Assembly: GCA_903970275.1 (NCBI GenBank)
Contig: CAJCIA010000079.1
Location: 1-53,452 of the forward strand
Direction: 5' to 3'
Source of the DNA: Betaproteobacteria bacterium
GTDB lineage: Bacteria; Verrucomicrobiota; Verrucomicrobiia; Methylacidiphilales; UBA1321
DNA length: 53,452 bases
Position numbers and translations under genes: made by a program. A model generated the notes under the pieces. It worked only from the letters and a program-made list of their open reading frames with translations. It was not told the origin of the DNA and did not search any database. Position 1 is the stretch's first letter. Every line of letters starts with the position of its first letter. Below are positions 6,152-29,776 of the stretch, piece by piece.

Positions 6152-6402
6152 GCCAAGGCAACTATACGCGCGGTCCGCAAAATGGCCATGGCCACGCGCA
6201 AGTTCGCCGGACTGCCGAGAAGTCACCGCTTCTCACGCTCAGCCCGCCACTACCTTTTCGCCGCAAATAAATTGTGGCCGCGAAAAAGATTGGCTTAGAA
6301 TCCGCCGCAGCCGAACACCTCGTCAACCAACCAGCGTATCCCAGCCACATTAAGCTCCGTCAATCATGTGGATGTCTCGTCGCTACCAAACACGTGACCG
6401 CC

Positions 6403-7802: not shown

Positions 7803-7891
7803 CCAGAGGACAAAGAGCGAGCAACGAAGAAGCGTATTCGCGAGACGAAAAGCGAAAAGTAGATCGGCCTCGACACGCAGTCATTTCTGAA

Positions 7892-11981: not shown

Positions 11982-11983
11982 AC

Positions 11984-13090
11984 ATGGTTGATTACGTGAT
12001 CGTTGGGGCGGGCTTCGCCGGCAGCGTCCTTGCGGAACGGCTGGCGAGCTATGGCAAGACGGTTGTCCTAGTCGATGCGCGAAACCACATCGGAGGGAAT
12101 GCCTACGATCATTACGACGACGCGGGCATTCTGGTCCACCGCTATGGCCCTCACATCTTTCACACGAACTCGGAGGAGATCTTTCGCTACCTGAGCCGGT
12201 TCACGAAATGGCGGCCTTACCAACACCGCGTGCGTGCAGTGGTGGATGGACAGACCGTGCCGATCCCGATCAACCTCGACACGATTAATTCGCTTTATGG
12301 CCTCTCCCTGGATTCAAATGGGATGACCGAGTTTCTCGCCAAGCGGGCGGAGAAGCCCTTGGCGATCACGACCTCGGAGGATGTGATCGTGTCGAAGGTG
12401 GGCCGCGAGTTGTACGAGAAATTCTTCCGGAACTACACGCGCAAGCAATGGGGGTTGGATCCGTCGGAGCTGGACGCCAGCGTCACCGCGCGCGTGCCGA
12501 CGCGGACGAATCGCGATGACCGCTACTTTTCCGACGCGTTTCAGTCGATGCCGCTCCACGGGTTCACGCGCATGTTTGAGAACATGCTGGATCACCCTCG
12601 AATCAAGATCGTGCTGAACACGAGCTTCCGCGAGGTGGCGGGGCATATCGCGTACAAGGAACTTATCTTCACCGGGCCGATCGACGCCTTTTTCAACTAT
12701 CGCTTTGGCAAGCTCCCCTATCGCTCGATCGAGTTTGAGCACCAGACCTGCGACCAGGAGGTTTTTCAGGAAACGCCCGTTGTCAATTACCCCAACGACT
12801 ATCTTTATACCCGGGTAACTGAGTTCAAGCATCTCACTGGGCAGAAGCATCCAAAGACGAGCATCGTCTATGAGTATCCGACGGCGGAAGGTGATCCCTA
12901 TTATCCGATCCCAAGGGCGGAGAACGCGAATCTATACCGGCAATACAAGGAGCTGGCCGCCTGTACGCCGAACGTGCATTTCGTGGGACGACTTGGCACC
13001 TACAAGTACTATAATATGGATCAGGTAGTCGGGCAGGCTCTCACGACGTTTCGGCATTTAACGGCTCAAACCAAGGCGCAAGTGGCGTAA
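11984..13090 (+). CDS. glf: UDP-galactopyranose mutase
   Basis: A 368-residue flavoprotein that interconverts UDP-galactopyranose and UDP-galactofuranose in the cytosol. The N-terminal FAD-binding IVGAGFAGSVLAE is near residues 5-17, and GGNAYDHYD and GPHIFHTN follow in the usual order. RNYTRKQWGLDPSEL and VPTRTNRDDRYFSD carry conserved arginines and tyrosines of the substrate site. GRLGTYKYYNMDQVVGQAL at the C-terminus is the second FAD-contact region. Length and motif order are those of the bacterial family. The ATG is two bases after the upstream glycosyltransferase stop, and ten bases with an AGGAGG site separate it from the next gene. It points to a galactofuranose-containing glycan. Confidence 0.95.
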   Translation: MVDYVIVGAGFAGSVLAERLASYGKTVVLVDARNHIGGNAYDHYDDAGILVHRYGPHIFHTNSEEIFRYLSRFTKWRPYQHRVRAVVDGQTVPIPINLDTINSLYGLSLDSNGMTEFLAKRAEKPLAITTSEDVIVSKVGRELYEKFFRNYTRKQWGLDPSELDASVTARVPTRTNRDDRYFSDAFQSMPLHGFTRMFENMLDHPRIKIVLNTSFREVAGHIAYKELIFTGPIDAFFNYRFGKLPYRSIEFEHQTCDQEVFQETPVVNYPNDYLYTRVTEFKHLTGQKHPKTSIVYEYPTAEGDPYYPIPRAENANLYRQYKELAACTPNVHFVGRLGTYKYYNMDQVVGQALTTFRHLTAQTKAQVA

Positions 13091-13100
13091 AGGAGGGGAA

Positions 13101-15251: not shown

Positions 15252-15260
15252 AAGGTCGTC

Positions 15261-17384
15261 ATGCCGCGGCGCCACTTCCTCACCGCACCCTCGATCATCG
15301 AGGAACTGCCTTCGAAGGCGACCCAGGACGAGAAGGATGTTCGGTTTCGTCCTCCCGCCGTGCCGCTCATCGCGGTTGATCCCTACTTCAGCATTTGGTC
15401 CTGCGACAACAAGCTTACCGACGAGTGGTCCAAGCATTGGACCGGCCTCAGTCAGGGCCTCGGCGGCCTGCTCCGCATCGATGGCAAAGTTCATCGTTTC
15501 ATGGGTCCGGAGCCTCAGGACGTTCCCGAGATGCGGCAGGTGGGCCTGGCGGTTTTCCCCACGCGCACGGTCTATACCTTCCAGACCCGGGAAGTCGAAT
15601 TGCGCTTCGCGTTCCAAACGCCGGTGTTGCCGGATGATCTTGAAGTCTTCGCCTGGCCGGTAACCTACCTTCAGTTCTCGCTGCGCAGCCGCGACGGTCA
15701 GCCGCACGAAGGAGCGATCTATCTCGAGTTCTCGGCGGAGATCGTCGTCGACAACGACAACCAGCAGGTCGTCTGGTTCCGTCTGCAGCAGGAACATTCC
15801 GATGTCCTTGCCTGCGGATCGCGCGACCAGCGCGTTCTGGAAAAAAGCGGCGATAATGTCCGCATCGACTGGGGATTTCTCTACGTCGCGCTGCCCCGGA
15901 CGATGGACGGTCAGGCGGTGATCTCACGCCACGATCTCGCGCGTCGCGCCTTTGCCGCGAACCTGCCTTTTCCGCGGGACGACGATACGTGTTATCCCTG
16001 CGCGGTGTCGGACGGCTGGCCGCGCTTGTCGCTCAACATCCCGCTGCGGGCCGACGCGTCGACGGTCGCGACCAAGTACGCCCTGGTGGCTTATGACGAC
16101 CATTACTCCCTGGAATATCACGAGCGACGCCTCCGCCCCTACTGGCGGCGGCAGGGCGATTCGATCGGCGATCTGCTGCGCGCGGCGGTTGAACGCGAGG
16201 AGGAAATCCGGCGCCGCTGCGAGGAGTTTGATCGCCGCGTCGTCCGCGAGTTGTATGCTGCCGGCGGCCCCGAGTACGCACGCCTAGCCTGTTTGGCGTA
16301 TCGCCAAACCACCGCAGCCCACAAGCTGACGGCGGATTTCGACGGCATGCTGCTCTATTTCGCCAAGGAGAATTACAGCAACGGGTGCATGGGCACGGTT
16401 GACGTGACGTATCCGTCGGCGCCGTTCTTTCTCTATTTCAACCCCCGGCTGTTGCGGGCTCAGCTTGATCCCATCATGAGCTACGCCAAGTCGCCGCGCT
16501 GGAAGTTCCCCTTCGCGCCGCACGATCTGGGGGTCTACCCGAAGGCGAACGGACAGGTTTACGGCGGCGGCGAGCGGTCGGAGGACGACCAGATGCCGGT
16601 GGAGGAATGCGGCAACATGCTGATCCTGGCTGCCGCGCTGGTGCAGGCGGAAAAGGAGACAAGCTTCGCGGAACGGAATTGGGAACTGCTTTCCACTTGG
16701 GCGCGCTATCTGTTGGAAAAAGGTTTTGATCCTGCCCGGCAGCTTTGCACCGACGACTTCGCGGGCCGGCTGGCTCACAACACCAATCTGTCGATCAAAG
16801 CCATTCTGGCCTTGGGCGCATTTGCACAGCTTTGCCAAGCGACCGGTCGCGCCGAGGAGGCGCAAACGTATCGCGACTCGGCAGAATCCATGGTGCAGCA
16901 ATGGATCGCCGCGGCCTCGGATGAGGACCACTATCGGCTGACTTTTGACGGACCCGGCACGTGGAGCCTGAAGTACAATCTCTTTTGGGACAAGGCGCTC
17001 AAGCTCCACCTTTTTCCCTCGAAGGTGTTTCATACCGAAACTGCCTTCTATAAGAAAAAACAGAACCGTTACGGCCTGCCTCTCGACAGTCGCCGCACCT
17101 CCGGCAAGACGGACTGGATTGCCTGGTGGGCGGCGACCTGCGAGAACCGCGACGACTTCATCATATTCATCAAGCCGCTTTATCAGTGGTGCCAAAAGAC
17201 CAGCAGTCGGGTGCCGTTGCCCGACTGGTATTGGACAGACAGTGGCCGGCAGGTGACCTACTACTCATGGCGTTACGGTAAGCGCTTTGGGTTTCAGGCC
17301 CGCTCCGTAGTGGGAGGATTTTTTGCCAAGCTCTATATGGATTCACAATCGGGTTTGGGCAAGCCGGCTTCCCCTTCTATCTAG
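15261..17384 (+). CDS. DUF4965/DUF5127/DUF1793-type protein (glutaminase A-like fold), probable cytosolic glycosidase-like enzyme
   Basis: A 707-residue protein. The start VPLIAVDPYFSIWSCDNKLTD near residue 33 is the characteristic opening of this family. A beta-sandwich half (to about 300) precedes an alpha/alpha-toroid half with GCMGTVDVTYPSAPFF, MPVEECGNM and DDFAGRLAHNTNLSIKA. These are the hallmark acidic motifs of DUF4965/DUF1793 proteins, named after fungal glutaminase A but also likely to act on glycans. No signal peptide is visible, unlike many relatives. It begins ten bases after the GH1-RmlD fusion, with AAAGG before the ATG, and so belongs to the same operon. The last 13 residues after KLYMDSQ do not look like the family end; another frame downstream continues with plausible coding text. 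Confidence 0.8.
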   Translation: MPRRHFLTAPSIIEELPSKATQDEKDVRFRPPAVPLIAVDPYFSIWSCDNKLTDEWSKHWTGLSQGLGGLLRIDGKVHRFMGPEPQDVPEMRQVGLAVFPTRTVYTFQTREVELRFAFQTPVLPDDLEVFAWPVTYLQFSLRSRDGQPHEGAIYLEFSAEIVVDNDNQQVVWFRLQQEHSDVLACGSRDQRVLEKSGDNVRIDWGFLYVALPRTMDGQAVISRHDLARRAFAANLPFPRDDDTCYPCAVSDGWPRLSLNIPLRADASTVATKYALVAYDDHYSLEYHERRLRPYWRRQGDSIGDLLRAAVEREEEIRRRCEEFDRRVVRELYAAGGPEYARLACLAYRQTTAAHKLTADFDGMLLYFAKENYSNGCMGTVDVTYPSAPFFLYFNPRLLRAQLDPIMSYAKSPRWKFPFAPHDLGVYPKANGQVYGGGERSEDDQMPVEECGNMLILAAALVQAEKETSFAERNWELLSTWARYLLEKGFDPARQLCTDDFAGRLAHNTNLSIKAILALGAFAQLCQATGRAEEAQTYRDSAESMVQQWIAAASDEDHYRLTFDGPGTWSLKYNLFWDKALKLHLFPSKVFHTETAFYKKKQNRYGLPLDSRRTSGKTDWIAWWAATCENRDDFIIFIKPLYQWCQKTSSRVPLPDWYWTDSGRQVTYYSWRYGKRFGFQARSVVGGFFAKLYMDSQSGLGKPASPSI

Positions 17385-17499
17385 CCGCACAGGAGCGAAC
17401 TTTAGGAAGCAGTGCCACCGTCGATCTGGACCGGGGGAATGGATGGCTCTTGTTCATCGGAAGCGTGCGGCTGAAGTCGTCACGTCTATGACGGTGGAT

Positions 17500-19299
17500 T
17501 CACTCTTCCGTCGTTGAAAAGGAAGCGGGCCGCTCGATCACCACGGTTGCGGGTTCGTCCAGATTCATTTCCGCATCACTCGAGCAAAAAAGCGTTTTGC
17601 CGGCCGGCATCTGCAGGTCGCGGGCCCTCTTGACGGCAAATATGACGTCCACCACGCGTCCAGGCAGGGTATAGGAAAGAAGGACGACATCGCCAGCGGA
17701 TTGGACCCTCCAACGAGTTCGGCCGGGATTCCCCTCGAGGTGAAGCTCCTTGCGCAGCGCAAGCGCCCGTTTGTAAAATGTAAAAGTGGAACGGTAGGGC
17801 TCGCGGCCCAGCTCTTCCCAATCCAGCTTGGATTTGGCAAAGGCCTCCTCGGTTTGCGGATCGATGACCTCGTTCTTGCGGTCCTTGGGCACCTCCAGTC
17901 CCAAGCGGGCGAATTCCTTGCGACGATACTCGGCCATCTTGATGCCCAACTCGCCCTCAAAATCGGTGAAGAAGTGGAAGGGTGAACTCGCCGCCCATTC
18001 CTGGCCCATGAACAACAGGGGCGTGTAGGGAAGCAGGCAGAAGAAAAGTGAGACAGCGCGATACGCCGTCGGCGAGATCGCGTGATGGAAACGGTCCGCC
18101 AGAGGACGATTTCCGATCTGGTCGTGATTGGAGATGCAGTAGACAAACTTCTCCGGGGCGACATGCCGGCATTCCGTTCCTCGCGCAATGCCCGCCGGCG
18201 GTATCGGCCGGCCGCGATGGAGCCACCCGTGCTCCACCGTTTCCGCAATCTCAGAGGCGGAGCCCGTGAAGGCTTCGAAATAGCGATCGCGGCTCGGGTC
18301 CTGGCTGACGCGGATGTCGTGATGGAAGTCATCGGCCCAGGCCGCGTCGAAGTTCCAGCCCTTCTTCGATTCATCCTCGATCACGGTTACGGCATTCCGC
18401 TCGTCCTCCGCGACCAGAAAGCCGCCGTGCTCGTGCACCAGCGCACTCAGCTCGGCAAGCAGGTGAACCTCGCTCCGGTCCGGGATGGCGTGGGTCGCGT
18501 CAAAGCGAAAGCCGTCGATGCGAAACTCCTCCAGCCAGTAGGTAATATTCTGCTTGAGGAGAGCACGCACCGGGACACTGGAAGATCCGTCGAGATCAAA
18601 ATTGCGGCCCCACGGCGTATCCGACTCGGAATGAAAATACTTCGCCGTGAAGGTGGAGGAGACGTTTCCCTGCGGGCCGAGATGGTTAAAGACCACATCG
18701 AGCATCACCGAAAGACCATGCTCGTGACAGGCGTCGATAAGCGTCCGAAAATCACCCGGCGTTCCATAGGTGTGCGTTGGGGCGAAGAGAAAGGTGCCAT
18801 CATAGCCCCAGTTCCAGCGGCCTGCCCGCTCCGTCACAGGCATGATCTCAACGCAGGTGACTCCCAGTTCGCGCAAGTGCTCGAGGTGTTCAATGGCTCC
18901 CTGAAAGGTTCCCGTCCGGCTGAAGGTGCCGAGGTGAAGCTCGTAAACAATTTGCCCCTTCCACGAGGGCGTTTCCCAGTTCTGGCATCGCCAGGTAAAC
19001 GCCTTCGGGTCGATCACCATCGAAGGCCCGCTCACACCTCGTGGCTGAAACCGTGAGGCAAAATCCGGAATGCCCACCTTCTCATCGAGTTCGAACGTAT
19101 AGAGATCGCCCGGCCGACCCTCGGGATCGAACACCTCGAAATAGCCAGCCGGTGAAATAGGATCGAGCTGATGGCGCCGGGTCTCGTTGATTGTGACCCA
19201 GATTTGCCGATGATCAGGAGCCCAAATCGTGTAACGAACGCCGGTAGAAAAAACAACCGCGCCTTGCGGCAGGGAGTCAACAGTGTGTGCTTGATGCAT
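17500..19299 (-). CDS. treZ: Malto-oligosyltrehalose trehalohydrolase
   Basis: A 599-residue GH13 enzyme that cleaves maltooligosyl-trehalose to free trehalose in the cytosol. An N-terminal beta-sandwich (to about 100) is followed by the catalytic barrel. GYDGTFLFAPTHTYG near 165, nucleophile Asp267 in GFRFDATHAI, acid/base Glu298 in VAEDE and Asp393 in NHDQIGNR are all present. WADDFHHDIR near 321 is the specific TreZ signature. It is convergent with the DUF4965-type gene across a 115-bp gap. The usual partner treY and other trehalose or glycogen genes are not in the window, so its substrate must come from elsewhere on the chromosome. Confidence 0.93.
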   Translation of the reverse strand: MHQAHTVDSLPQGAVVFSTGVRYTIWAPDHRQIWVTINETRRHQLDPISPAGYFEVFDPEGRPGDLYTFELDEKVGIPDFASRFQPRGVSGPSMVIDPKAFTWRCQNWETPSWKGQIVYELHLGTFSRTGTFQGAIEHLEHLRELGVTCVEIMPVTERAGRWNWGYDGTFLFAPTHTYGTPGDFRTLIDACHEHGLSVMLDVVFNHLGPQGNVSSTFTAKYFHSESDTPWGRNFDLDGSSSVPVRALLKQNITYWLEEFRIDGFRFDATHAIPDRSEVHLLAELSALVHEHGGFLVAEDERNAVTVIEDESKKGWNFDAAWADDFHHDIRVSQDPSRDRYFEAFTGSASEIAETVEHGWLHRGRPIPPAGIARGTECRHVAPEKFVYCISNHDQIGNRPLADRFHHAISPTAYRAVSLFFCLLPYTPLLFMGQEWAASSPFHFFTDFEGELGIKMAEYRRKEFARLGLEVPKDRKNEVIDPQTEEAFAKSKLDWEELGREPYRSTFTFYKRALALRKELHLEGNPGRTRWRVQSAGDVVLLSYTLPGRVVDVIFAVKRARDLQMPAGKTLFCSSDAEMNLDEPATVVIERPASFSTTEE

Positions 19300-19908
19300 A
19301 GAAAGAAAAGGTGTGTACCGCTACCGAGATCCAAGGCGTTCGTTTGAGCCCGCGGGAGCACATGCGATCCTTAACATAGAGGTGGAGTGATTCTCATTGT
19401 CGTGAACGTGCTATATCGCCACGCCCAGGGAGACATGGTTCCGATTTGCAACGGCACTCTAATCGGAGCGTGAATACGCGCAATGAGAGCGGGCGCTGAT
19501 CTCCTCTTGAGCCGTCGACTCAGTCTCCCTAATCCGACTGCCTATGGAATAATCAGTTCGAGGTTGATCCCCGGCTTAGAGGCAAAAGTCACTTTAAAAA
19601 AATCAGGGCGGTTAAACAGACTGCTTCTGCTCTTTGGAGACTCGTTCCACCTAATCGGCAGGCGCGGGTTACTTGGGCGGCGAATTGATCTTCAAATCCC
19701 ACTTCGCAGGAGCTCCGACTTAAAGCATCGTAGGCTGGCTGTTTGCTCGGACAATTAGCTCGAATTTCAAGTAGACGGTGCCTGTCCATCTTCAACGGGC
19801 GAACGCGGAGGACTTGCAGTTCAAGTCCCTTCTGAAATCTGAGGCTACCGGTTTTATCTCATTCAATTCGTGCGCGAAAGGTTCCGTTCCTAAGCGGAGC
19901 GAGACTAT
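19300..19908. other. Gene-free stretch between treZ and tetR
   Basis: About 600 bases between divergent genes with many stops in all frames and no recognisable gene. It should hold the treZ promoter at its left end. The only structure I see is a segment at 19578-19645 that is a diverged copy of sequence just inside the left end of the genomic island (23293 onward). This suggests an old insertion scar near the efflux operon. Confidence 0.5.
19578..19645. repeat. Diverged copy of the island left-end sequence
   Basis: Starts AGAGGCAAAAGTCAC, continues through a run of A and AGGGC, and ends near CTCTTTGG. It aligns by eye with 23293-23360 (AGAGGTAAAAGTCAC, A-run, AGGGC, CCCTCTGG) at about three-quarters identity with small gaps. 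A weaker third relative begins at 29522 with AGAGGTGAA. The function is unknown. Read on the minus strand, each copy ends in a T-run, so terminator or integrase-arm roles are possible. Confidence 0.5.
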
Positions 19909-19950
19909 TTGCATGATGATTGTCATGTGATATGATGATCGTCATGAGAT
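19909..19950 (+). promoter_or_regulatory. tetR promoter with two tandem operator-like repeats
   Basis: Two 19-bp units, ATGATGATTGTCATGTGAT (19913) and ATGATGATCGTCATGAGAT (19932), lie head to tail and differ at two positions. Each contains a near-perfect palindrome: CATGATGATTGTCATG at 19912-19927 and ATGATGATCGTCAT at 19932-19945. A TTGCAT (19909) and TATGAT (19931) pair with 16-bp spacing forms a plausible promoter covered by both units. Transcription would then begin at about the ATG of tetR, giving a leaderless message. Autorepression by the TetR protein is the natural reading (inference). Confidence 0.65.
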
Positions 19951-20555
19951 ATGACAAGGGGCACAAAGAAAACACTCGCCGGCACATTCTTGAGGCCGCT
20001 TCGACTCGTTTTCGACGCGACGGCATTGAAGCGGTGGGAGTGGCTGAATTGATGAGCGACGCCGGACTCACCCACGGCGGGTTTTACAGTCATTTTTCCT
20101 CAAAGGAGGATTTGGTTCGGGCAACCATCGAGCACGCCGCCGACGGCGCTCGAGCCCGTTTTCGCGAGTTGATGAACGACGCTGGACTCGAGGGCTGGAT
20201 TCGGCGCTATCTTCGCCCCGAGCATCGGGATCATCCCGAACGCGGCTGTCTCGGCGCTGCGCTTGTGAGCGAATTGTCGCGTCATTCCGCTACCACAAAG
20301 GCGGCAGTCAGCCAATGGACGGTAAAGGTTTTCGACGATGTGGCGGCGCATCTGCCTTCCACCATCCCCAGGCAAAAGCGACGGATGGTCGCGGTCGGTA
20401 TCTTCTCGACGATGATCGGCGCGTTGCAACTCGCGCGCGTGGCTCCAGACGCGAAGACGGCGGATGAGGCGCTCGAATCCGGCATTGCTTGTGCCTTGCA
20501 ACTCGCGGGGCTGAAACCGCAGTCACGTTTACAGCCGAAAGCCAGGACTTCATGA
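19944..20555 (+). CDS. TetR/AcrR-family transcriptional regulator
   Basis: A 203-residue repressor. The N-terminal helix-turn-helix reads HILEAASTRFRRDGIEAVGV, then LMSDAGLTHGGFYSHFSSKE around residues 35-55, the standard TetR recognition helix. The C-terminal part is a ligand-binding helical domain of the TetR_C_16/YcdC-like sort (LGAALVSELSRHS near 95). MRYDKGHKENTRRHI is taken as the start because it fits family N-termini; ATGs at 19932 and 19935 and a TTG at 19920 are alternatives that fall inside the operator repeats. It overlaps the membrane fusion gene by four bases (ATGA) and so should control the efflux operon it heads. Confidence 0.9.
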   Translation: MRYDKGHKENTRRHILEAASTRFRRDGIEAVGVAELMSDAGLTHGGFYSHFSSKEDLVRATIEHAADGARARFRELMNDAGLEGWIRRYLRPEHRDHPERGCLGAALVSELSRHSATTKAAVSQWTVKVFDDVAAHLPSTIPRQKRRMVAVGIFSTMIGALQLARVAPDAKTADEALESGIACALQLAGLKPQSRLQPKARTS

Positions 20556-21421
20556 GTACTCCTCCTCCTGCTGCCGCTCTCAGACCGGCTACCGAGGCAG
20601 GTGCAACGGTTTCGCCCTGGCGTCGCCGCAAGATCATCCTCGCCGTGGCCGCGTTCATCCTTCTCGCGGCGGGGGCAGGCGTTTACTACATCCTCAACCG
20701 CGGATGGGAATCGACGGATGATGCCTTCATCGAGGGTCACATCGTGGAAATGAGTTCGAAACTTTCCAACACCGTGGCCGAGGTGGCAATCGACGACAAC
20801 CAGCTCGTGAAGAAAGGCCAGATTCTTGTTCGCATCGATCCGCGCGATTACCAAGTCGCTCTCAACGAAGCGCAAGCCAACTTCGACAAAGCCCAGAGCG
20901 ACTTAAAACGCATAACCTCACTGATCCCGAGTAATGCAGTTTCCCGGCAGGATCTTGACGCCGCCCGAGCGGCACGTGACGTCGCTCAATCGCGACTGGA
21001 TCGCGCCAAGCTCGACCTCGGGTATACCGAGATTCGCGCCGAGGCTGATGGTCGCATCACGCGCAAGAATGTGGAGCCCGGCAGCTACGTGGAAGTGGGC
21101 CAGGTCCTCTTCGCCGTTGTTCCGGTACGCGTCTGGGTGTTGGCAAACTTCAAGGAGACCCAACTCACGCACATGCACGCGGGGCAATTCGCGCTGCTCT
21201 ATATCGACGCATATCCGGGGCGCCCGCTCCGCGGGCATGTGGACAGCTTGCAGGACGGAACCGGCGCACGGTTTAGCCTCTTGCCCCCGGAAAATGCGAC
21301 TGGCAATTACGTCAAAGTAGTGCAGCGCGTGCCTGTGAAGATTGTCTTCGATGAGCCTGACACGGCCCTGGCGGAACTCGCACCCGGCATCTCCGTGCAA
21401 CCCAAGGTCAACGTGCGGTGA
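20552..21421 (+). CDS. HlyD/EmrA-type membrane fusion protein of an efflux pump
   Basis: A 289-residue periplasmic adaptor. One N-terminal transmembrane helix (about residues 29-50, ILAVAAFILLAAGAGVYYI) is followed by the biotinyl-lipoyl half WESTDDAFIEGHIVEMSS, a hairpin (ALNEAQANFDKAQSDLKRI to LDLGYTEIRAEADGRI) and a beta-barrel domain. It links the inner-membrane MFS pump to an outer-membrane channel. No outer-membrane TolC-like gene is next to it, so one must be supplied in trans. The start overlaps the tetR stop as ATGA, and its own stop overlaps the pump start as GTGA: a translationally coupled three-gene operon. It is somewhat short compared with E. coli EmrA (about 390), mainly through a shorter hairpin. 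Confidence 0.9.
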   Translation: MSTPPPAAALRPATEAGATVSPWRRRKIILAVAAFILLAAGAGVYYILNRGWESTDDAFIEGHIVEMSSKLSNTVAEVAIDDNQLVKKGQILVRIDPRDYQVALNEAQANFDKAQSDLKRITSLIPSNAVSRQDLDAARAARDVAQSRLDRAKLDLGYTEIRAEADGRITRKNVEPGSYVEVGQVLFAVVPVRVWVLANFKETQLTHMHAGQFALLYIDAYPGRPLRGHVDSLQDGTGARFSLLPPENATGNYVKVVQRVPVKIVFDEPDTALAELAPGISVQPKVNVR

Positions 21422-23013
21422 GCGCGGTCGCCCTCGCTTCGGGCGATGCCTTTGCGGGTGAGCGGCCAGCCGTCAATCCCTGGTTGATCGCGCTGACGGT
21501 CACCCTCGCGACGTTCATGGAGCTGCTCGACACCAGCATCGCCAACGTCGCACTGCCCAACATCGCAGGCGGCCTCGCTTCTGGTGAGGACGAGGCGACC
21601 TGGGTTTTGACCAGCTACCTTGTGGCCAACGCCGTGGTTCTGCCGCTGAGCGCATGGCTGAGCGAGATCATTGGACGAAAGCGTTACTACCTCATCTGCG
21701 TCGCGCTATTCACGGGGAGTTCGCTGCTTTGCGGCCTGGCTCCCAGTCTGGGCACGCTGATCTTCTTCCGCATCCTGCAAGGCATTGGCGGAGGCGGGCT
21801 TGCGCCCGTTTCGCAGGCGATCCTTGTCGACACATTCCCCCTCGAAAAACGGGCGAGCGCCTTCGCCATTTATGGACAGGCCGCCGTGCTCGGCCCAGCG
21901 CTCGGCCCCACCCTTGGCGGCCTGATCACCGACGCGATGTCCTGGCGTTGGGTGTTCTTCATCAACATTCCGGTCGGACTGATCGCGCTTTTTTTCGCCA
22001 ATCAATTGGTTCATGACCCGCCTGTGATGCAGGAACGAACCGCGTTGGCACGCCGCGCGGGTGCGAAGGTCGATTTCATGGGCATACTCCTCATTGCCCT
22101 GGGCTTCGGCTGCCTGGAAGTCGTGCTCGACAAGGGTCAACGTGATGACTGGTTCGAGTCGACCTCAATCTGCGGCTTCTTCATCATCTCGGCTATCTCG
22201 CTTCTTGCCGCCGTCTGGTGGGAGCGCCGACAACGCGACCCCGTGGTTGATCTCTCGCTCCTGACGGAAAGAAATTTCGTCCTCGCGAACATCTTCTACT
22301 TTCTCTTCGGCTTCGTCTTGATCGGGGCCACCGTCCTTCAGCCCGAAATGCTGCAGCAGCTTTTTGGCTATACCGCGACCCAGTCTGGCCTGTCGCTCTC
22401 GCCGGGCGCGCTCCTGCTTGCGTTCCTCATCCCCATCTCCACTAAATTCATACCGTGGGCCGGAGCGAAGAACCTGATTGCTCTTGGGTTTGGCCTTCTT
22501 GCTCTCTCGATGTGGTATTACAGCACGCTCGATCTTGACGCGACGTTCTGGCAGATCGTGGGTCCACGGCTTGTTCTCGGCGTTGGCCTCTCGTTCCTTT
22601 TCGTGCCGATTAGCAGCGTGGCCTATTCGCGGTTAAACAAAGAGAAAAACAACAAGGCCTCCAGTCTGACCAATCTTTTTCGCAACCTTGGCGGCAGCTT
22701 TGGTATTTCTTTTGTCACGACTATGCTGGCGCGCCGGGGCCAGTACCACCAGACCGTGCTCGCCGAGCATATTAATAACTCGGATCCCACTGCCCTTGGC
22801 GCCTTCCATCACCTCGTGCGCACCCTGGAAGGGGCGGGCCTCTCCGCGCCCGCCGCAAATCTTAAGGCGCAAGCACTGACCGCCCATGCGCTCGACACGC
22901 AGGTTTCGATTCTGAGTTTCCTGGATGCCTTCTGGCTTCTCGGCCTCGTCGCGCTGATCGGCATTCCGCTGGCCTTTTTTGTCAAACCGACCGCGGCGCC
23001 TGTGAAGGGCTGA
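21418..23013 (+). CDS. DHA2-family MFS multidrug transporter (EmrB/QacA type)
   Basis: A 531-residue inner-membrane protein with about 14 transmembrane helices. FMELLDTSIANVALPNIAGG near 38-57 is the DHA2 motif D1, WLSEIIGRKRYY near 80 is motif A, and LGPALGPTLGGLI near 160 is motif C of drug/proton antiporters. It should export hydrophobic toxic compounds through the HlyD-type adaptor encoded just upstream. The start is GTG at 21418, overlapping the upstream stop. TetR control is expected from gene order. It is the last gene before the region that borders the tRNA-Gln island. Confidence 0.92.
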   Translation: MSAVALASGDAFAGERPAVNPWLIALTVTLATFMELLDTSIANVALPNIAGGLASGEDEATWVLTSYLVANAVVLPLSAWLSEIIGRKRYYLICVALFTGSSLLCGLAPSLGTLIFFRILQGIGGGGLAPVSQAILVDTFPLEKRASAFAIYGQAAVLGPALGPTLGGLITDAMSWRWVFFINIPVGLIALFFANQLVHDPPVMQERTALARRAGAKVDFMGILLIALGFGCLEVVLDKGQRDDWFESTSICGFFIISAISLLAAVWWERRQRDPVVDLSLLTERNFVLANIFYFLFGFVLIGATVLQPEMLQQLFGYTATQSGLSLSPGALLLAFLIPISTKFIPWAGAKNLIALGFGLLALSMWYYSTLDLDATFWQIVGPRLVLGVGLSFLFVPISSVAYSRLNKEKNNKASSLTNLFRNLGGSFGISFVTTMLARRGQYHQTVLAEHINNSDPTALGAFHHLVRTLEGAGLSAPAANLKAQALTAHALDTQVSILSFLDAFWLLGLVALIGIPLAFFVKPTAAPVKG

Positions 23014-23391
23014 GTGCTGGCTAAGTCGCCGGCAAGGTCAAAACTTGCGCAATCAAACCTAGCCATTGTTGCTTCACGTCTGACCCAGACGGATGGGTCA
23101 GGTAATGAGGCGCCGGTGGAATGGTGTTGCGCGTGACTACGAGAGTTTTAGTCCATTGGCGACCATACCAACAAAGTATGCCGCTGGCCGGCGGGTGCCG
23201 CCATGGGTGCCACTGACCGCTTTTTCTTCCGGCCGATCGCTTTTCTCAGAGGTAAGGAGCTGCCGCGCTAGGACTCGAACCTACAGCGCTTCAGAGGTAA
23301 AAGTCACATTTCAAAAAATAAGGGCCGCTTAAAGGGCCGCTTTTGCCCTCTGGCGTCTTGGCGCGTGAATTCAGCAGTCTTTCCATCGTCG
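23014..23391. other. Island left boundary region, no gene
   Basis: This 378-bp stretch has no gene. It holds the left 26-bp copy of the tRNA-Gln 3' end. A 10-bp direct repeat TCAGAGGTAA lies on both sides of that copy (23246 and 23291). Further in, GGGCCGCTT occurs twice (23322 and 23334). On the minus strand, downstream of hipA, a hairpin with arms at 23333-23337 and 23345-23349 lies 14 bases before a six-T run, a weak candidate terminator for hipBA. Confidence 0.5.
23258..23283. repeat. Left attachment-site copy (tRNA-Gln 3' end)
   Basis: A 26-bp sequence identical to 29702-29727, covering the T arm and acceptor 3' strand of the tRNA-Gln gene. It begins AGCTGCCGCGCTAGGACTCG. The bases just outside differ at both ends (G versus A upstream, C versus G downstream), so the identity is exactly this block. 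There is no tRNA 5' half here, so it is a boundary duplication left by site-specific integration rather than a second tRNA gene. Confidence 0.85.
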
Positions 23392-24717
23392 TCATCGGCG
23401 CGCCTTCGTTTTAAGTCGCTCGGCTTGCTGCCGAATTCCGGCAAGGATCGAATCGCGCACGCGCGCGGGAAAGCCCTTGGGCAACTGGCTTCTGACTTCG
23501 GCGATGACACCAGGGATTTGGGCGGTCACTTCCGCGATCAGCTCCGAAGCATCCCCCAATCCCGCGAGTCGGGCGGCCCAGTCAAAGTGATGGGGCTGGA
23601 TTTCCAAAAGCCGACGATGAGGACTTTTACCCCGCAGGGCCATGGCTAACTCCGCCTTGTGAATGTCGAGCAGGCCCGCGCCATGCCCCATCACGGGCCA
23701 AGCTGAAAGCACATCGTAGAAGGGAGTCAGGCGATAGGTGCCTCCCTGCTCGTGGAAGATGGAGAAGTTTTTGGCGTGCCCGTCGGTGGCAGCCAGTAGC
23801 CAGAACACCAGTTGAGCTTTGACGAAAGCACGCTTGTCCTCCGCCGCTCGCGAACTGGCATCCAGCACACGCAGGATGTCCTGGATACCGGGGCCGCCCT
23901 GATTCTCGTACTTGTTCTCCCCTGGCACCCCCAGGGCTTGGCAGAAATCTTCCTGCGGCAGCCGGGCGATCCAAGAGCGGTTGATCCAGCGCCGATCAAA
24001 CCGCTCGACGGCCAGCACCTTGCGCGCGCCAAACTGCAGGATCTCGCAGGCAGCGGTCTCGAGGCCGAAGGCGCTCATCAGGCGCGAGCAGAGCCATTCG
24101 TTTTCCACCGAATCCTGCATGTCGATTTGGAGATTGCCGATGACTCCGAGGGGCAGCTTGAAAATATGCGTGGTGGGGGTCAATCCCTGCGGCCGCAGCC
24201 AATGGCCCTGATGGAAAAGCAACGCCGTCTTCTCTTGGGCACCGGCGATTGAGATTCGAAAATCAGCCTGCTCCGACTGCCCGGTCAGGGGATGACCTGA
24301 AAGAGCCGCGCTAATGGCCTGCTCAACGCCGGCATCGTCCAGCTTATCTCCTTTGACCTGGTCAAACCCCTCGGGGGTTTCGCGCTCGGGGAGGAGTTGC
24401 ACGGCTCCGACACATTCCTGCCCCACGGCAGCCAGAAGATCGAACGGATCGGTGGTTGGGGTGCCGAAGCGGGCCTTGATTCGGCGGCGAATGGCGTCGC
24501 TGTCGGGAAGCAGATTGTCGAAGAAGCTGGCGACCACCTTGCCGGTGCGGGGCACATTGCCGGGCGTAAATGGCAGGGACAACGAAAGTACACGCCTTTC
24601 GGGAGCCTCCAACCAATCGGTGTCGTATTGAAAAGTGGAAGAACCAGAGGCAGGTGGAGACCAGACGCCGACGCGTTGACCATTCATCCAAACAACAAGG
24701 GGAGATCGTCTAGCCAT
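23392..24717 (-). CDS. hipA: HipA-type serine/threonine kinase toxin
   Basis: A 441-residue HipA homologue. The N-subdomain begins RRSPLVVWMNGQRVGVW. ISIAGAQEKTALL carries the autophosphorylation serine (Ser156), IFKLPLG the ATP-binding lysine (Lys187), AVERFDR follows, and the catalytic loop ATDGHAKNFSIF has Asp312 and Asn317, with metal-binding Asp335 in YDVLS. All active residues are present, so it should be functional. In E. coli, HipA phosphorylates glutamyl-tRNA synthetase and induces persistence. The ATG at 24717 is chosen for its GAGG six bases upstream; a GTG at 24732 would overlap hipB. The gap to hipB is 8 bp. In an island this pair probably helps its retention. Confidence 0.92.
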   Translation of the reverse strand: MARRSPLVVWMNGQRVGVWSPPASGSSTFQYDTDWLEAPERRVLSLSLPFTPGNVPRTGKVVASFFDNLLPDSDAIRRRIKARFGTPTTDPFDLLAAVGQECVGAVQLLPERETPEGFDQVKGDKLDDAGVEQAISAALSGHPLTGQSEQADFRISIAGAQEKTALLFHQGHWLRPQGLTPTTHIFKLPLGVIGNLQIDMQDSVENEWLCSRLMSAFGLETAACEILQFGARKVLAVERFDRRWINRSWIARLPQEDFCQALGVPGENKYENQGGPGIQDILRVLDASSRAAEDKRAFVKAQLVFWLLAATDGHAKNFSIFHEQGGTYRLTPFYDVLSAWPVMGHGAGLLDIHKAELAMALRGKSPHRRLLEIQPHHFDWAARLAGLGDASELIAEVTAQIPGVIAEVRSQLPKGFPARVRDSILAGIRQQAERLKTKARR

Positions 24718-24725
24718 GGGAGACC

Positions 24726-25004
24726 TCACCACTTGGCCGCAGGCTTGCGAACGCTTTTGCCATCTGATTTGGCGACTTTCTCTGCAGGCACTTCAATGAG
24801 CATCCGTCCGCCCAAGGCCGCAACCAACCGGGAGATCTGATCAAAGCTGGTACGTCCTGGAACCGATTCGATCCAGGCTACACGCTTTTGACTAACCCCC
24901 AGCAGGCGGCCAAGAGCCTCCTGGGTCAGTCCCCTCGATTTGCGCAGAGCGCGCAAGGTCGCGGCAAGCTGGATTGGGGTGGATACGGGGTGATTTGGGC
25001 TCAC
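24726..25004 (-). CDS. hipB: HipB-type antitoxin, helix-turn-helix
   Basis: A 92-residue protein with a Cro/CI-type HTH: LAATLRALRKSRGLTQEALG then LLGVSQKRVAWIES (residues 13-47), followed by RLVAALGGRMLIEV, the pattern of HipB antitoxins. It would neutralise HipA and repress the operon. The start is GTG at 25004. A Lys/Ala-rich tail ends the protein. Upstream at 25042-25059 lies an inverted repeat that may be its operator. The gene order hipB-hipA and the short gap are standard. Confidence 0.88.
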   Translation of the reverse strand: MSPNHPVSTPIQLAATLRALRKSRGLTQEALGRLLGVSQKRVAWIESVPGRTSFDQISRLVAALGGRMLIEVPAEKVAKSDGKSVRKPAAKW

Positions 25005-25041
25005 CCTCGACTTGTACTACCTTTAACGAGTAAATGCAAGA

Positions 25042-25059
25042 TACTATTTTTGGATAGTA
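25042..25059. promoter_or_regulatory. Inverted repeat upstream of hipB, possible HipB operator
   Basis: TACTAT and ATAGTA arms separated by TTTTGG, 38 bp before the hipB start. The classical E. coli HipB box (TATCC, eight bases, GGATA) is not exactly reproduced, so the role is inferred from position only. Confidence 0.4.
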
Positions 25060-25120
25060 AAACACATCTACCCGCTATATGGGGTATTCGCTTGGCGGCA
25101 GAGTTGCCCACTATTTTGAG

Positions 25121-25157
25121 TTGACGTACCTATATTTTCAGTATTTATTGAAAATAT
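25121..25157 (+). promoter_or_regulatory. Promoter and palindromic operator at the GbsR/MarR-like gene
   Basis: ATATTTTCA (25132-25140) and TGAAAATAT (25149-25157) form a perfect 9-bp inverted repeat with an 8-bp spacer, ending on the start codon of the regulator. A TTGACG at 25121 with 17-bp spacing to TTTATT at 25144 is a plausible promoter, placing the transcription start at about the ATG. Binding by the encoded regulator would block its own promoter (inference). Confidence 0.65.
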
Positions 25158-25698
25158 GAGCGAGAAGACAGAAGTCCCCGATCAGTTGACCGCCGCCCGA
25201 GATGAATTCATCTCCCAATGGGGCGCGATGGGCGGTGCATGGGGCATCAACCGGACCATGGCCCAGGTGCATGCACTGCTCATGACCAGCGAGAAAGCAT
25301 TGACCACGGACGAGGTTATGGCCGAGCTGAAGATCAGCCGGGGCAATGCTCACCAGAACTTGCGGGAGCTGGTGGGTTGGGGGCTCGTGCGCAACGTCAT
25401 TCGGAAGGGTGAGCGCAAGGAATACTACGAATCCGAGAAGGATGTCTGGAGGATGTTTTGCATCATCGCGCGGGAACGCAAGCGCCGTGAGGTTGAGCCG
25501 GCACTCCGGGCTCTGCAAACCTGCGAGGAGCAAACGCGTGGATTGCGCGGCGAGAAGGCCGCCGCGTTTAACCGTCAGATCAAGGCACTTTCCGAATTCC
25601 TGGGCCAGGCTGAAGCCATTATGGACCGAGTTTCCAAGTCCGAACAGAGCGCCATCATGCCTCTCGTCCTTAAGATGTTCGCCAAGAGCTCCAAATGA
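25156..25698 (+). CDS. GbsR/MarR-family transcriptional regulator
   Basis: A 180-residue winged-helix protein. ISQWGAMGGAWGINRTMAQVH near residues 19-39 and KALTTDEVMAELKISRGNAH to LVGWGLVRNV (47-80) match the GbsR/MarR group, where the motif 'SRGNxxxxLRxLxxWGLV' is diagnostic. The wing is IRKGERKEYYESEKD, and a long helical C-terminus provides dimerisation. The ATG lies on the right arm of a palindrome that is repeated before the next gene, so it likely represses both itself and the membrane/DCC cluster downstream. A signal molecule cannot be predicted. Confidence 0.88.
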   Translation: MSEKTEVPDQLTAARDEFISQWGAMGGAWGINRTMAQVHALLMTSEKALTTDEVMAELKISRGNAHQNLRELVGWGLVRNVIRKGERKEYYESEKDVWRMFCIIARERKRREVEPALRALQTCEEQTRGLRGEKAAAFNRQIKALSEFLGQAEAIMDRVSKSEQSAIMPLVLKMFAKSSK

Positions 25699-25764
25699 TC
25701 CTTATGAAAACACGCAAAACATCCACACGACGAGAAACCAAGGCGAACGTCTCTTATTTGAGGA

Positions 25765-25790
25765 AAACTTTCACTATTTATCGAAAATAT
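25765..25790 (+). promoter_or_regulatory. Second operator-like site, before the membrane/DCC cluster
   Basis: A 26-bp site that matches the palindrome at 25132-25157 at 22 positions: shared core TTTCA, TATTTAT and GAAAATAT. The left arm is less symmetric than in the first copy. It lies 58 bp before the next start codon, suggesting that the GbsR/MarR-like protein controls the following genes. Confidence 0.6.
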
Positions 25791-25848
25791 CGGAACCATA
25801 AGCGGTTCGTTCATCCCGACCTTCTCTAACCCTAACCCAAAGAAAATC

Positions 25849-26250
25849 ATGACACCTATCGTTTGGACCTACATCTCCTACCTGATCATCTCCGTTGCCC
25901 TGACCATTTGGGTCGCGCGAACGCTCTTCAAGAATGGCCGGATTTTCTTGGTCGATAGCTTCCTGGGCAATGAACCGCTGGCGGATTCCATCAACCACCT
26001 GCTTGTCGTCGGGTTCTATCTGATCAACTTTGGCTACGTCACGATGGCGTTGAAGTCGGCGGACAAGCCGGTCGATCTGCAGGGGGTGCTGGAGACACTC
26101 AGTGGCAAGATTGGCTGGGTACTGCTGATCCTGGGCGGGATGCACTTCTTCAATCTCTTCATCTTTTCCAAGATGCGGAAGCGCGCGCTTCTGCAGAACG
26201 CACTCCCACCCGTACCGCCCCAGGTCTTCGTCCAAGGAGTGACGCCATGA
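25849..26250 (+). CDS. Small membrane protein of unknown function
   Basis: A 133-residue protein with three probable transmembrane helices: about 5-25 (WTYISYLIISVALTIWVA), 45-66 (NHLLVVGFYLINFGYVTMAL) and 85-105 (IGWVLLILGGMHFFNLFIF). A basic stretch KMRKRALLQ follows the last helix. I do not recognise a named family. It overlaps the next gene by four bases (ATGA), so the two are translated together. With the DCC protein and the truncated acyltransferase-like gene it forms a probable membrane-linked unit under the upstream regulator. Confidence 0.75.
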   Translation: MTPIVWTYISYLIISVALTIWVARTLFKNGRIFLVDSFLGNEPLADSINHLLVVGFYLINFGYVTMALKSADKPVDLQGVLETLSGKIGWVLLILGGMHFFNLFIFSKMRKRALLQNALPPVPPQVFVQGVTP

Positions 26251-26687
26251 AATCCCTCTACGTCCTCTACGACCAGGAGTGCTCCCTGTGTCTCTCCTGC
26301 GGACATTGGTTGATGCGGCAGGCCGCGTTCATCCAGCTCCGTTTCATTCCGCTTCAATCGCCGGAGATCGCCCAGCGCTTTCCGGGTCTCAAGGAGTGGG
26401 ACGGCCTGGATCTGCGAGAGAAGCTCGTGGTCGTGAGTGACGAAGGTGCGGTTTACCAAGGCCAGTACGCCTGGATCATGTGCCTCTACGCCTTGCGCGA
26501 TTATCGCGAATGGTCTCAGCGGCTCGCTGAACCACTGCTGCTTCCCTTCGCGCGCCGGGTTTGCGAGCTGGTTTCCAGGAACCGGCTTGCGATTTCCCAC
26601 TTCCTGAAAGCGCCTACGGCCGAGCTCCGCAATACGCTCGCGGCCTCTTTACCTCCAGTCTGCAGTATCGGAACGAAATGTGACTGA
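26247..26687 (+). CDS. DCC-family (DUF393) thiol-disulfide oxidoreductase-like protein
   Basis: A 146-residue protein that opens YVLYDQECSLCLSCGHWL. Asp9, Cys12 and Cys15 form the D-x-x-C-x-x-C signature of DUF393 proteins, with an extra Cys18. Members have a thioredoxin-like fold; their redox role is assumed rather than shown. SPEIAQRFPGL and a YQGQYAWIMCLYALRDYR segment are the other usual features. It overlaps the membrane protein start by ATGA and is followed two bases after its stop by the next gene, so the three form one operon. Confidence 0.85.
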   Translation: MKSLYVLYDQECSLCLSCGHWLMRQAAFIQLRFIPLQSPEIAQRFPGLKEWDGLDLREKLVVVSDEGAVYQGQYAWIMCLYALRDYREWSQRLAEPLLLPFARRVCELVSRNRLAISHFLKAPTAELRNTLAASLPPVCSIGTKCD

Positions 26688-26689
26688 GC

Positions 26690-27148
26690 ATGGAAACGAC
26701 CCTCACCACCCACCAAGGAAAAGCAGTCTCTGCCTATCAGAGTTGGATTGGCTGGGCTCCGCTCGTGGTCTGCACGGCGGCAGCGACATTGCTTCGAAAC
26801 GCCGTGCCGCCTTGGGCGCTCATGTGGATCTTATCCATCGTGATCTTCGCCGGCTTCAAATGGTGGACTTGGTGGCGCGCGGTCGACAGCCGGGCGCGGA
26901 CGACGGCCATGCGCTCGTTGATCTACCTGTTTCTATGGCCTGGAATGGATGCGCGTCGGTTCCTCGCTCTGAAGAAGTGGAGCGGTAACCCCTCCGCCCC
27001 GACTTGGCTCTGGGCAATTTCCAAAACGATCTTTGGCGCGGGACTGGTCTGGGGCGTGGCGCGACTGGCAGGCAACGGCTTGCTCGCTGGCTGGATCGGC
27101 ATGGTGGGATTACTCAAACTCTCCGAGAGAGGTGCGGGTGCAGGCTGA
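26690..27148 (+). pseudogene. Truncated membrane protein, MBOAT/wax-synthase-like N-terminus
   Basis: 152 residues with hydrophobic helices near 22-40, 43-60 and 105-140. YLFLWPGMDARRFL near 75-90 is the N-terminal signature of membrane-bound acyltransferase proteins related to wax synthase, which are normally around 330-400 residues long. After GWIGMVGLL the reading becomes KLSERGAGAG and stops. From about 27135 another frame encodes part of a histidine kinase. The gene therefore appears cut by a recombination near 27120, losing its catalytic half. Family assignment rests on pattern memory. Confidence 0.55.
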
Positions 27149-28343
27149 AGCGGAGGCGATAACAATTGGCGAGGCCATCTCGGTGCGGACCCAAAAGCCC
27201 GATTTAATTTCCGCCGAGTTGCCGGATTCGATTATCCACTACGTAGCGCGAACTCGCGAAAGCGTGATCTTGGACGATGCATCCTCGCCGGGTACTTTTT
27301 CGCAAGACGCCTATATCCAGAAGCACCAGATACGATCCGTTCTTTGCCTTCCGTTGCTCAAACAAGCAAAACTGATGGGGATTCTTTACCTCGAGAATAA
27401 TCTGGCACGAGGGGTTTTTACTCCCGGTCGTGTATCGATTCTCAAGCTAATTGCTTCGGAAGCCGCTATCTCGCTGGAGAATGCGCGTTTGGTTGCCGAT
27501 ATAAAACACGGCGAAAAAAGAACCCGTCGGCTAGTCGAAGCCAATATCATCGGAATCATGATCTGGCGTTCCGATGGCCACGTTATTGATGCGAACGAAG
27601 CTTTTCTCCAGATGATCGACTACACCCGAGATGAACTGCTCTCGGGTCGAGTTCTATGGACCGATTTGACCCCAGCAGAATGGCGTGAGCGCGATGAGCA
27701 GGCTCTCGTGGAGGTCACAACCACAGGCGCTTTCAAGCCTTTTGAAAAAGAGTACCTCAGAAGAAATGGCAGTCGCGTGCCGGTGCTGATTGGCGGTGCC
27801 ATGTTCGAGTCCCCCGGAAGTGAAGGAGTCGCCTTTATTCTCGATTTAAGCGAGCAGAAACGGGCTGAGGCGGCGGTAAGCAATGCCCGGACGGAACTGG
27901 CCCACGTCGGCCGCATCGCAACACTCGGAGAGTTGGCCGCTTCCATCGCCCATGAGGTTAACCAGCCGCTCGGCTCCGTGGTCAATAACGCCAACGCTTG
28001 CCTGACGATCCTTGACCACGATTCGCCGCAAACAAAAGAGGTGCGTCAGGCGTTGGCGGAGATTATTGAGGGAGCGGAACGCGCCAGCGCGGTCATCTCG
28101 CGCGTCCGGAGTTTGTCGAAAAAGATGCCTTTCGAGCATGAGCGCTTCAACCTGCACGACACCGTCAACGAGGTGATATCGCTCGTTCGGCACGAGGCAG
28201 CAACGCGTCAGGTCAAAATTCAAACCGACATGGCCGACGATCTCCCACCCATCTGTGGTGATCGCGTCCAGCTTCAGCAGGTCTTGCTCAACCTCGTTGT
28301 CAACGGGATGGAGGCCATGGCGACCACGGAACCACGTGAATAA
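27135..28343 (+). pseudogene. Fragment of a large GAF-PAS-histidine kinase
   Basis: About 400 codons in one frame without a proper start. In order: the end of a linker, a GAF domain (ESVILDDAS to RSVLCLPLLKQAKLMGILYL), a PAS domain (IMIWRSDGHVIDANEAFLQM) and HisKA with the phospho-acceptor His in ASIAHEVNQPLG. The ATPase domain is cut just after LLNLVVNGMEAMA in its N box and stops at once. The segment resembles the C-terminal third of giant ATPase/GAF/PAS sensor kinases of 1,700-1,900 residues. It lacks both the N-terminal modules and the catalytic ATP-binding domain, so it cannot work as a kinase. Its left end lies in the broken acyltransferase-like gene and its right end in the broken integrase. 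Confidence 0.75.
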
Positions 28344-29151
28344 AGTTCGCGGTAACGTCTTCCCAATTCATGCCGCTGATTTCCCAGCTGCGTAAGGCGA
28401 AACCAAATCCCAAGTCCACCGCTGGCTGCAAGGAAGACGACCGTTTCCGGCGGATAAGGATCAGAACCCGCCCTACGGCCTCGACTTCAGGGACCAACAG
28501 CGGCTGTTCCAAGACTTTTTTACTGAACTTTTCGATTTTTGATGCCGGATTGTTGCCGAGATAGCCTTCTTCAATGCCCCAGTCGAAGAGGGTGAAGATG
28601 TAGTCCCGATAGTTATTGAATGTTCGTGGAGCCCATTCCTCCTCCTCCATGCGATCTTCCAGATAAATCTCTAACTCCTCTTCGGTATACTCCACCATGG
28701 TTTTACTGGGCAGATCCCGAACCACGGTACCAAGGCAGGTTTCAAGAACCTTGTGCCAACCCGCACTGACCGATCCTTTCCGTTTTCGATTTTGAGTGGA
28801 TTTCAGGAAAAGAGGATAGGCAACCTGGAGCAGGATACTTTTCTTCTTCGCGGTTCTGCGCTCTTGGTCGGCTTTAGCCGCATCGACAAGATTGGCCATG
28901 GGGTCGATAAGCCTGGTCTCGCGCACGATGGCAATGGCATCCATCATCTCGTGTCGCTCCCTGCTTGTCAGGGCCCGCCATAGCAACCAGAAGGTGCGGC
29001 CCTCGTCTTCCGCAATGTTCGCGTTCTCGTCAATCCAGTCCCGTGCCTCTTCCCGGGTCCGAAAAGTCTTCCGGACCCGACGCTTTTCAACACGGTATTT
29101 GACTCTCCAAATCGTCTCTCCGGATTTAGTCCTTTCGCGGATCGGTGTCAT
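28300..29151 (-). pseudogene. Tyrosine-type site-specific integrase, truncated
   Basis: 283 codons. The N-terminus (MTPIRERTKSGETIWRVKYR, FRTREEARDWIDE) is the usual arm-binding start. A SAM-like core-binding domain with TFNNYRDYIFTLFDWGIEEGYL lies near 185-205. The catalytic domain begins with FALRSWEISGMNWEDV, which holds the first catalytic Arg. It ends soon after: the final dozen codons are antisense to the kinase fragment. The H-x-x-R box and the nucleophilic Tyr are lost, so it cannot recombine DNA. The start overlaps the xis-like gene stop by four bases. Its position next to the tRNA-Gln 3' end shows it inserted this island. Confidence 0.8.
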
Positions 29152-29462
29152 TTGACTACCCCCACGTTGTAAACGGCCAAGGCGGCTTCCACTGCGACCG
29201 GGTCAAAGGTCACTTTCTTGCGACTGAACCTCCGACAGGGAATCTTTCGCTTTTTTACCAGATTGTTGAAAAAGGTCTCTCTGACCGAAAGACGGCGCAT
29301 CATTTCCTTCCGGTCGACCCACTCTGGGGTGTAAGGAGGAAATGGCTTGCTCGTGGACGGCGAGCAAGCCTCGAGCGGCGTGACGACCGCAGGCTTGGTC
29401 AGGTGCTTCGGGCTGTACGCTTGGCGTCCCACCCCAAGATATAAGTAAGTTTTTCGAGCCAC
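29148..29462 (-). CDS. Excisionase-like helix-turn-helix protein
   Basis: Up to 104 residues. The C-terminal half PEWVDRKEMMRRLSVRETFF then NLVKKRKIPCRRFSRKKVTF is a small winged-helix of the excisionase/MerR-like kind, with a typical VDRKEMMRRLxVxxxxFxxLVKxxKIPxxR pattern. Overlap of its TGA with the integrase ATG marks a xis-int pair. The start is doubtful: the longest frame begins at a GTG, and later GTG or ATG codons are possible. It would direct excision or regulate the integrase. Confidence 0.7.
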   Translation of the reverse strand: MARKTYLYLGVGRQAYSPKHLTKPAVVTPLEACSPSTSKPFPPYTPEWVDRKEMMRRLSVRETFFNNLVKKRKIPCRRFSRKKVTFDPVAVEAALAVYNVGVVK

Positions 29463-29701
29463 CGGTACAAAAAAATGATTTGAAGTGCATTTTTTGTTTT
29501 GGGAGTTGGCCGAGTCGTTTTAGAGGTGAATCGACTTGCGAAAAGGGCCCAAAAAAGGGCCGCTGGCCGCCAAAAACACGCGGAAATGCGGTGTTATGCG
29601 AGGCCCTACGCGGACATCAAAATGCCGCAATTCGCGCTGTTAAATAGCTGCTGTGGAACCAACTAACTCCGCAAAAGGAGCTAGATCGCAGGAACCAGAA
29701 A

Positions 29702-29727
29702 AGCTGCCGCGCTAGGACTCGAACCTA
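29702..29727. repeat. Right attachment-site copy within tRNA-Gln
   Basis: Identical over 26 bp to 23258-23283. It covers the 3' part of the intact tRNA-Gln gene plus two bases beyond, so integration restores a functional tRNA. The 240 bases between the xis-like gene and this site contain no gene; a motif AGAGGTGAA at 29522 and the inverted pair GGCCC-AAAAAA-GGGCC near 29546 are the only structures seen. Confidence 0.85.
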
Positions 29728-29776
29728 GAACACCCAGATCCAGAATCTGGTGTGCTACCAATTGCACCACGCGGCA
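29704..29776 (-). tRNA. tRNA-Gln (anticodon CUG)
   Basis: Read on the minus strand, the acceptor stem TGCCGCG/CGCGGCA pairs fully. The anticodon arm is CCAGA-TTCTGGA-TCTGG, giving anticodon CTG, and the T arm is CTAGG-TTCGAGT-CCTAG. The discriminator is G, as usual for glutamine tRNAs. CCA is not encoded. The 3' end is the integration target of the neighbouring island. Confidence 0.95.

Follow-up and report, generated by a model that had tools for sequence, protein, structure and literature searches.

In a 53,452-nucleotide stretch of DNA (hereafter the window) from a draft genome of 271 contigs and 2.93 Mb, the 3' end of a tRNA-Gln(CUG) gene recurs at some distance from the gene itself, and an integrase gene, a predicted hipBA pair and a cluster with a GbsR-like regulator lie between the two copies. 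This arrangement raises the questions of whether the interval 23258-29727 is a mobile element that entered the tRNA gene, in what condition it now is, and whether its contents arrived together.

Direct repeats and shared end motifs bound the interval

The earlier note on this DNA had described exact 26-bp repeats in the same orientation, ~6.4 kb apart, of which the left one stands without a tRNA body, and our analysis reproduced this description. The sequence AGCTGCCGCGCTAGGACTCGAACCTA was found as a perfect direct repeat at 23258-23283 and 29702-29727, with identical orientation and a spacing of 6444 bp. ARAGORN placed an intact tRNA-Gln gene (anticodon CTG), the target gene, at 29703-29776 on the minus strand. 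The tRNA-proximal attachment site (29702-29727, plus strand) overlaps the 3' end of this gene, and the distal attachment half-site (23258-23283, plus strand) is a copy of that 3' end. The repeat had been described as 24 tRNA bases and two further bases; the repeat itself stands, but the ARAGORN boundary gives 25 tRNA bases and one outside for the 29702 copy, a difference only in the placement of the 3' end. The window contains no longer exact direct repeat, and all exact repeats of 18 bp or more belong to this pair. The whole assembly (2,926,007 bp) holds two copies when up to two mismatches are allowed and no copy of a reversed control pattern, so that the block is not common genome-wide, an outcome that had been named as counting against an element. 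A chance origin of the repeat was rejected because it is exact, has two copies per genome and lies in one case at a tRNA 3' end.

A separate short sequence, TCAGAGGTAA, flanks the left attachment copy on both sides (23246-23255 and 23291-23300) and is absent elsewhere in the window.

Just inside both repeats we observed the motif AGGGCC-N4-AAAGGGCC (23321-23338 and 29544-29561), which has no other exact match in the genome, and AGGGCCNNNNAAAGGGCC has exactly two perfect matches genome-wide, one inside each repeat. Both ends contain candidate arm-type sites for the integrase or an accessory protein on the plus strand: at the left end (23320-23341), two AAGGGCC copies with a 12-bp period lie ~37 bp inside the left attachment site, and at the integrase end (29543-29564), an AAGGGCC pair lies ~138 bp inside the right attachment site and could be aligned with the integrase end of a locus in G006, a genome of the same genus. 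We infer that these AAGGGCC pairs are arm-type binding sites. In G006, AGGGCCNNNNAAAGGGCC occurs without mismatch at the integrase end and with one mismatch at the left end, and contig C145 of G001 has a one-mismatch copy inside a tRNA-Gln 3' half-site; the spacing from the attachment site is similar in both. A more diverged and weaker version of the end layout is present in G018. The end motif can serve as a diagnostic in the search for relatives of the element.

These comparisons also bear on the reading that the element comprises only the integrase and xis end, the copy at 23258 being a chance or unrelated tRNA fragment. Fragments of tRNA 3' ends do exist elsewhere, for example in G001:C145. 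However, the 23258 copy is followed by a conserved left-end sequence with an arm pair that is common to G006, G001:C145 and, in part, G018, and we consider an unrelated fragment highly improbable.

The integrase gene is truncated

An integrase and an xis-like gene had been noted at the tRNA end. Both ORFs are there, but the integrase ORF is truncated. As called, it spans 28300-29151 on the minus strand, and alignment with full-length homologues, which are mostly 380-455 aa, showed that a tyrosine-recombinase sequence of ~270 of ~410 aa remains (28341-29151). The N-terminal and core-binding regions and Arg-I (FALRSWEI) are retained and the Lys, HxxR and Tyr are missing, leaving the catalytic R..K..HxxR..Y set incomplete; on these grounds we rejected the ORF as a full-length gene. 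An HMM of the missing C-terminal part found no remnant in the window. The final codons of the ORF run antisense to a kinase fragment, with a head-on fusion junction at ~28340. Given that only Arg-I is left of the catalytic set, the element is a remnant and not a competent one. The start of the integrase gene overlaps by a few bases the stop of the xis-like gene, a small HTH ORF of 104 aa (29148-29462, minus strand) with a weak HTH_17 match (E 0.012).

A scan of a collection of genome contigs, with the truncated integrase as the query, retrieved no relative. An integrase of the same type does occur at tRNA-Gln elsewhere, as the earlier note had proposed to look for: G006 has an integrase with 48% identity and an xis-like ORF with 43% identity at the equivalent position, adjoining a tRNA-Gln 3' fragment. 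A related xis-int pair lies in the same arrangement beside tRNA-Leu in G013, and more distant integrase homologues in the class often adjoin tRNA genes (Leu, Glu, Ser, Gly, Cys). The G006 locus (C153; L024:7172-13327) is not a clean intact element, since its two tRNA-Gln 3' copies, 5 kb apart, are in inverted orientation and the integrase-side copy comprises just a 3' fragment of the gene. An intact tRNA-Gln(CTG) was not found in the G006 genome, and the arrangement of the locus may reflect inversion, decay or misassembly.

tRNA-Gln(CUG) is a recurrent integration site in relatives

In the window and in the relatives compared, nearly all of which are draft genomes, tRNA-Gln(CUG) has been used repeatedly, by integrases of at least four divergent kinds. 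G001 (L016:9731-11014) and G002 (L017:12265-13548) carry a different, 427-aa integrase whose final codons (CRARTRT-stop) are within the tRNA-Gln 3' end, so that in these two genomes the attachment core doubles as coding sequence of the integrase. In G008, a 404-aa integrase directly follows tRNA-Gln; the fourth, an ORF with a weak integrase match, is located just inside the left attachment site of G009. Extra copies of the tRNA-Gln 3' end in the same orientation were found near the tRNA in G001 (22 kb), G009 (10 kb) and G018 (40 kb). These results mark tRNA-Gln(CUG) as a site for several unrelated integrases.

In contig C145 of G001, another genome of the same genus (L029:5736 onward, L126), an end similar to that of the island precedes genes for a TrwC relaxase, a coupling protein of the T4SS, ParA-like and AAA_13 proteins and a product that matches TrbL weakly. 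This gene content behind a similar end points to a family member that may be conjugative, possibly an ICE. Carbohydrate genes lie further along.

Cargo genes have different histories

The hipA-like gene (23392-24732, minus strand; PF07804 and PF13657) is full length and encodes a putative Ser/Thr kinase toxin, which matched the solved E. coli HipA with an E value of 3e-109 and aligned kinase motifs. The adjacent hipB-like gene (24726-25004, minus strand) encodes a predicted HTH antitoxin (TIGR03070, E 2.1e-13, below the cut-off; HTH_31, E 1.2e-11). The pair thus shows the kinase fold motifs expected of HipA together with a neighboring HTH antitoxin, and hipB lies upstream of hipA on one strand, as in the E. 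coli HipBA type II toxin-antitoxin system (3tpd, 2wiu). In contrast to that system, the island pair is a predicted toxin-antitoxin. A search of seven same-genus genomes yielded no hipA of this type, and on plasmids the best HipA relatives (Thauera, Azoarcus) are ~55% identical.

The second group of genes lies on the plus strand. It consists of the gene for a GbsR/CudC-like (MarR-type) transcriptional regulator (25156-25698; NF047500, E 2.3e-15, below the cut-off), orfA (25849-26250), which encodes a predicted membrane protein of 133 aa with no Pfam match, a DCC1-like thiol-disulfide oxidoreductase family gene (26247-26687; PF04134, E 5e-11) and orfC (26690-27148), the N-terminal part of a gene for an MBOAT-like membrane acyltransferase. 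Predicted GbsR operators lie upstream of gbsR (TTTCAGTATTTATTGAAAATA, 25136-25156, plus strand) and upstream of orfA (TTTCACTATTTATCGAAAATA, 25769-25789, plus strand); they are near-identical and palindrome-like (TTTCA-N-TATTTAT-N-GAAAATA). The position of the first is conserved in five or more relatives, including two from other families, and sites related to the second occur in G001, G002, G004 and G018. These sites are probably the operator of the GbsR-like regulator itself.

The cluster is 3'-truncated in the window. Homologues of orfC have open frames of 244-438 aa, similarity extends only to residue ~142-148, and their MBOAT_2 domain lies past the point, at ~27111, where orfC is broken. 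Homology to the cluster loci of relatives is limited at best to ~25114/25121-27111, and DNA similarity to G002 covers 25121-27111 only. The cluster is followed by an internal GAF-PAS-HisKA fragment of a trifunctional Ser/Thr kinase/ATPase/sensor histidine kinase gene (27130-28340, plus strand), cut at both ends. This piece is 54% identical to aa 1326-1724 of a Bradyrhizobium plasmid protein of 1810 aa, and it is therefore without the N-terminus and the ATPase end.

hipBA, the GbsR-like regulator and the DCC cluster had been thought to have been imported together, and this was not established. Orthologues of gbsR show 52-90% amino acid identity across the order, and those of orfA, which adjoin gbsR in G002, G003, G004 and G018, are 58-73% identical. 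G002, G003 and G004 carry the gbsR-orfA-DCC cluster and G018, a genome of the same order, carries gbsR-orfA, in each case without hipBA and away from tRNA-Gln; gbsR alone is found in G001, G012 and G008. Since hipA of this type is absent from the same-genus genomes searched and the gbsR cluster is present there without hipBA, the island cargo is, by these comparisons, a mosaic of histories, and paired attachment repeats alone are not proof that cargo came as one package.

An alternative to far import with hipBA is that gbsR-orfA-DCC-orfC is a native chromosomal cluster of the clade that was enclosed by the attachment sites or captured locally. The 76-90% identity of gbsR in four same-genus genomes and the cluster loci just described argue for this origin. 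However, gbsR is also 87% identical in G012, a genome from another family, and there is little synteny around the loci, so that the cluster may itself move horizontally. We therefore consider a native origin plausible, at slightly less than an even chance.

Integration and subsequent decay

The claim that the interval is a tRNA-Gln-targeted integrative element bounded by attachment repeats was borne out by the uniqueness of the repeat and by the integrase and xis-like genes with matching ends in G006. We conclude with considerable confidence that 23258-29727 is a site-specifically integrated element that later decayed. In the proposed course of events, a tyrosine-recombinase integrase would have recombined the attP of a circular element with the 3' end of tRNA-Gln(CUG), assisted by the xis-like protein and by the paired AAGGGCC arm sites at both ends, and would have kept the tRNA whole at one end, with the 26-bp copy of the tRNA 3' end marking the opposite one. 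Deletion or illegitimate recombination may then have joined the integrase gene to the internal sensor-kinase piece, which in turn may have been joined to the truncated acyltransferase gene. The element would no longer excise autonomously; its attachment and arm sites appear undamaged, and in principle a complete integrase from this family could use them in trans.

Two illegitimate junctions inside the island (~27111-27150 and ~28340) could also have arisen if two tandem elements of the same attachment family were fused by deletion, such that the left end with hipBA and gbsR-DCC came from one, the integrase end came from another, and an internal attachment site was lost. Repeated use of tRNA-Gln fits this reading, as does a C-terminal integrase fragment outside the left attachment site in G009, which suggests accretion. 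Nevertheless, a single-element history is simpler, and no third attachment-site copy, even a degenerate one with up to three mismatches, was found in the window; we regard a tandem fusion as unlikely. Under the favored history of a single integrated and decayed element, the broken integrase and the patchwork contents make this a well-defined but ordinary genomic-island remnant. For a lineage that has been little studied, a mobile element is thereby delimited and its present state described.

Relation to known elements

Islands and IMEs that target tRNA genes by means of a tyrosine integrase have repeats of 8-60 bp at the tRNA 3' end and an integration module at one end (PMC5704250). The island resembles these elements (PMC5704250) in its 26-bp direct repeats, which derive from a tRNA 3' end and stand at both boundaries, and in the integrase and xis-like genes on the tRNA side, the former a truncated member of the tyrosine recombinase superfamily. 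It differs from them in that there is no relaxase among its ORFs and its integrase is dead.

The closest known category appears to be the CIME (cis-mobilizable element; PMC5704250), which has attachment sites at both ends and lacks transfer genes and a working integrase. The island likewise keeps attL and attR and has a broken integrase, and no transfer genes were recognized among its main ORFs. Unlike a CIME as described (PMC5704250), it still holds part of the integrase gene, and mobilization by a resident ICE is here only a possibility.

The literature searched contained no relevant description of tRNA-Gln islands in Verrucomicrobia. The island may derive from a family of integrative elements that is so far undescribed, probably includes conjugative members, targets tRNA-Gln(CUG) in this lineage and is recognizable by a tRNA-Gln 3' core, AAGGGCC pairs with a 12-bp period in both arms and an overlapping xis-int pair; we put this forward tentatively, as a proposal just short of evenly balanced.

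Flanking DNA

The G+C content of the left flank from ~6 kb (0.52-0.63) overlaps that of the island, and that of the right flank to 50 kb is 0.61-0.69. No synteny of the left flank (6-23 kb) was found with any same-genus genome, and none of the relatives compared, which do not share this flank, provided the empty site that the earlier note had proposed to look for. Because of this lack of synteny and a G+C content lower than in most of the right flank, the left flank may itself be older accessory DNA. These points, together with the draft state of the assembly and the imperfect G006 locus, weigh against the favored reading. For a neighboring DUF255/thioredoxin-domain protein, Verrucomicrobiota MAGs were among the nearest matches, which makes Verrucomicrobiota the probable group of the uncultured host; tRNA-Gln lay upstream at none of the loci checked. 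The genes of the left flank (6000-23000) encode a glycosyltransferase, UDP-galactopyranose mutase, glycoside hydrolases and a TetR-HlyD-MFS efflux system, and homologues of the MFS-efflux genes were found at other locations in relatives.
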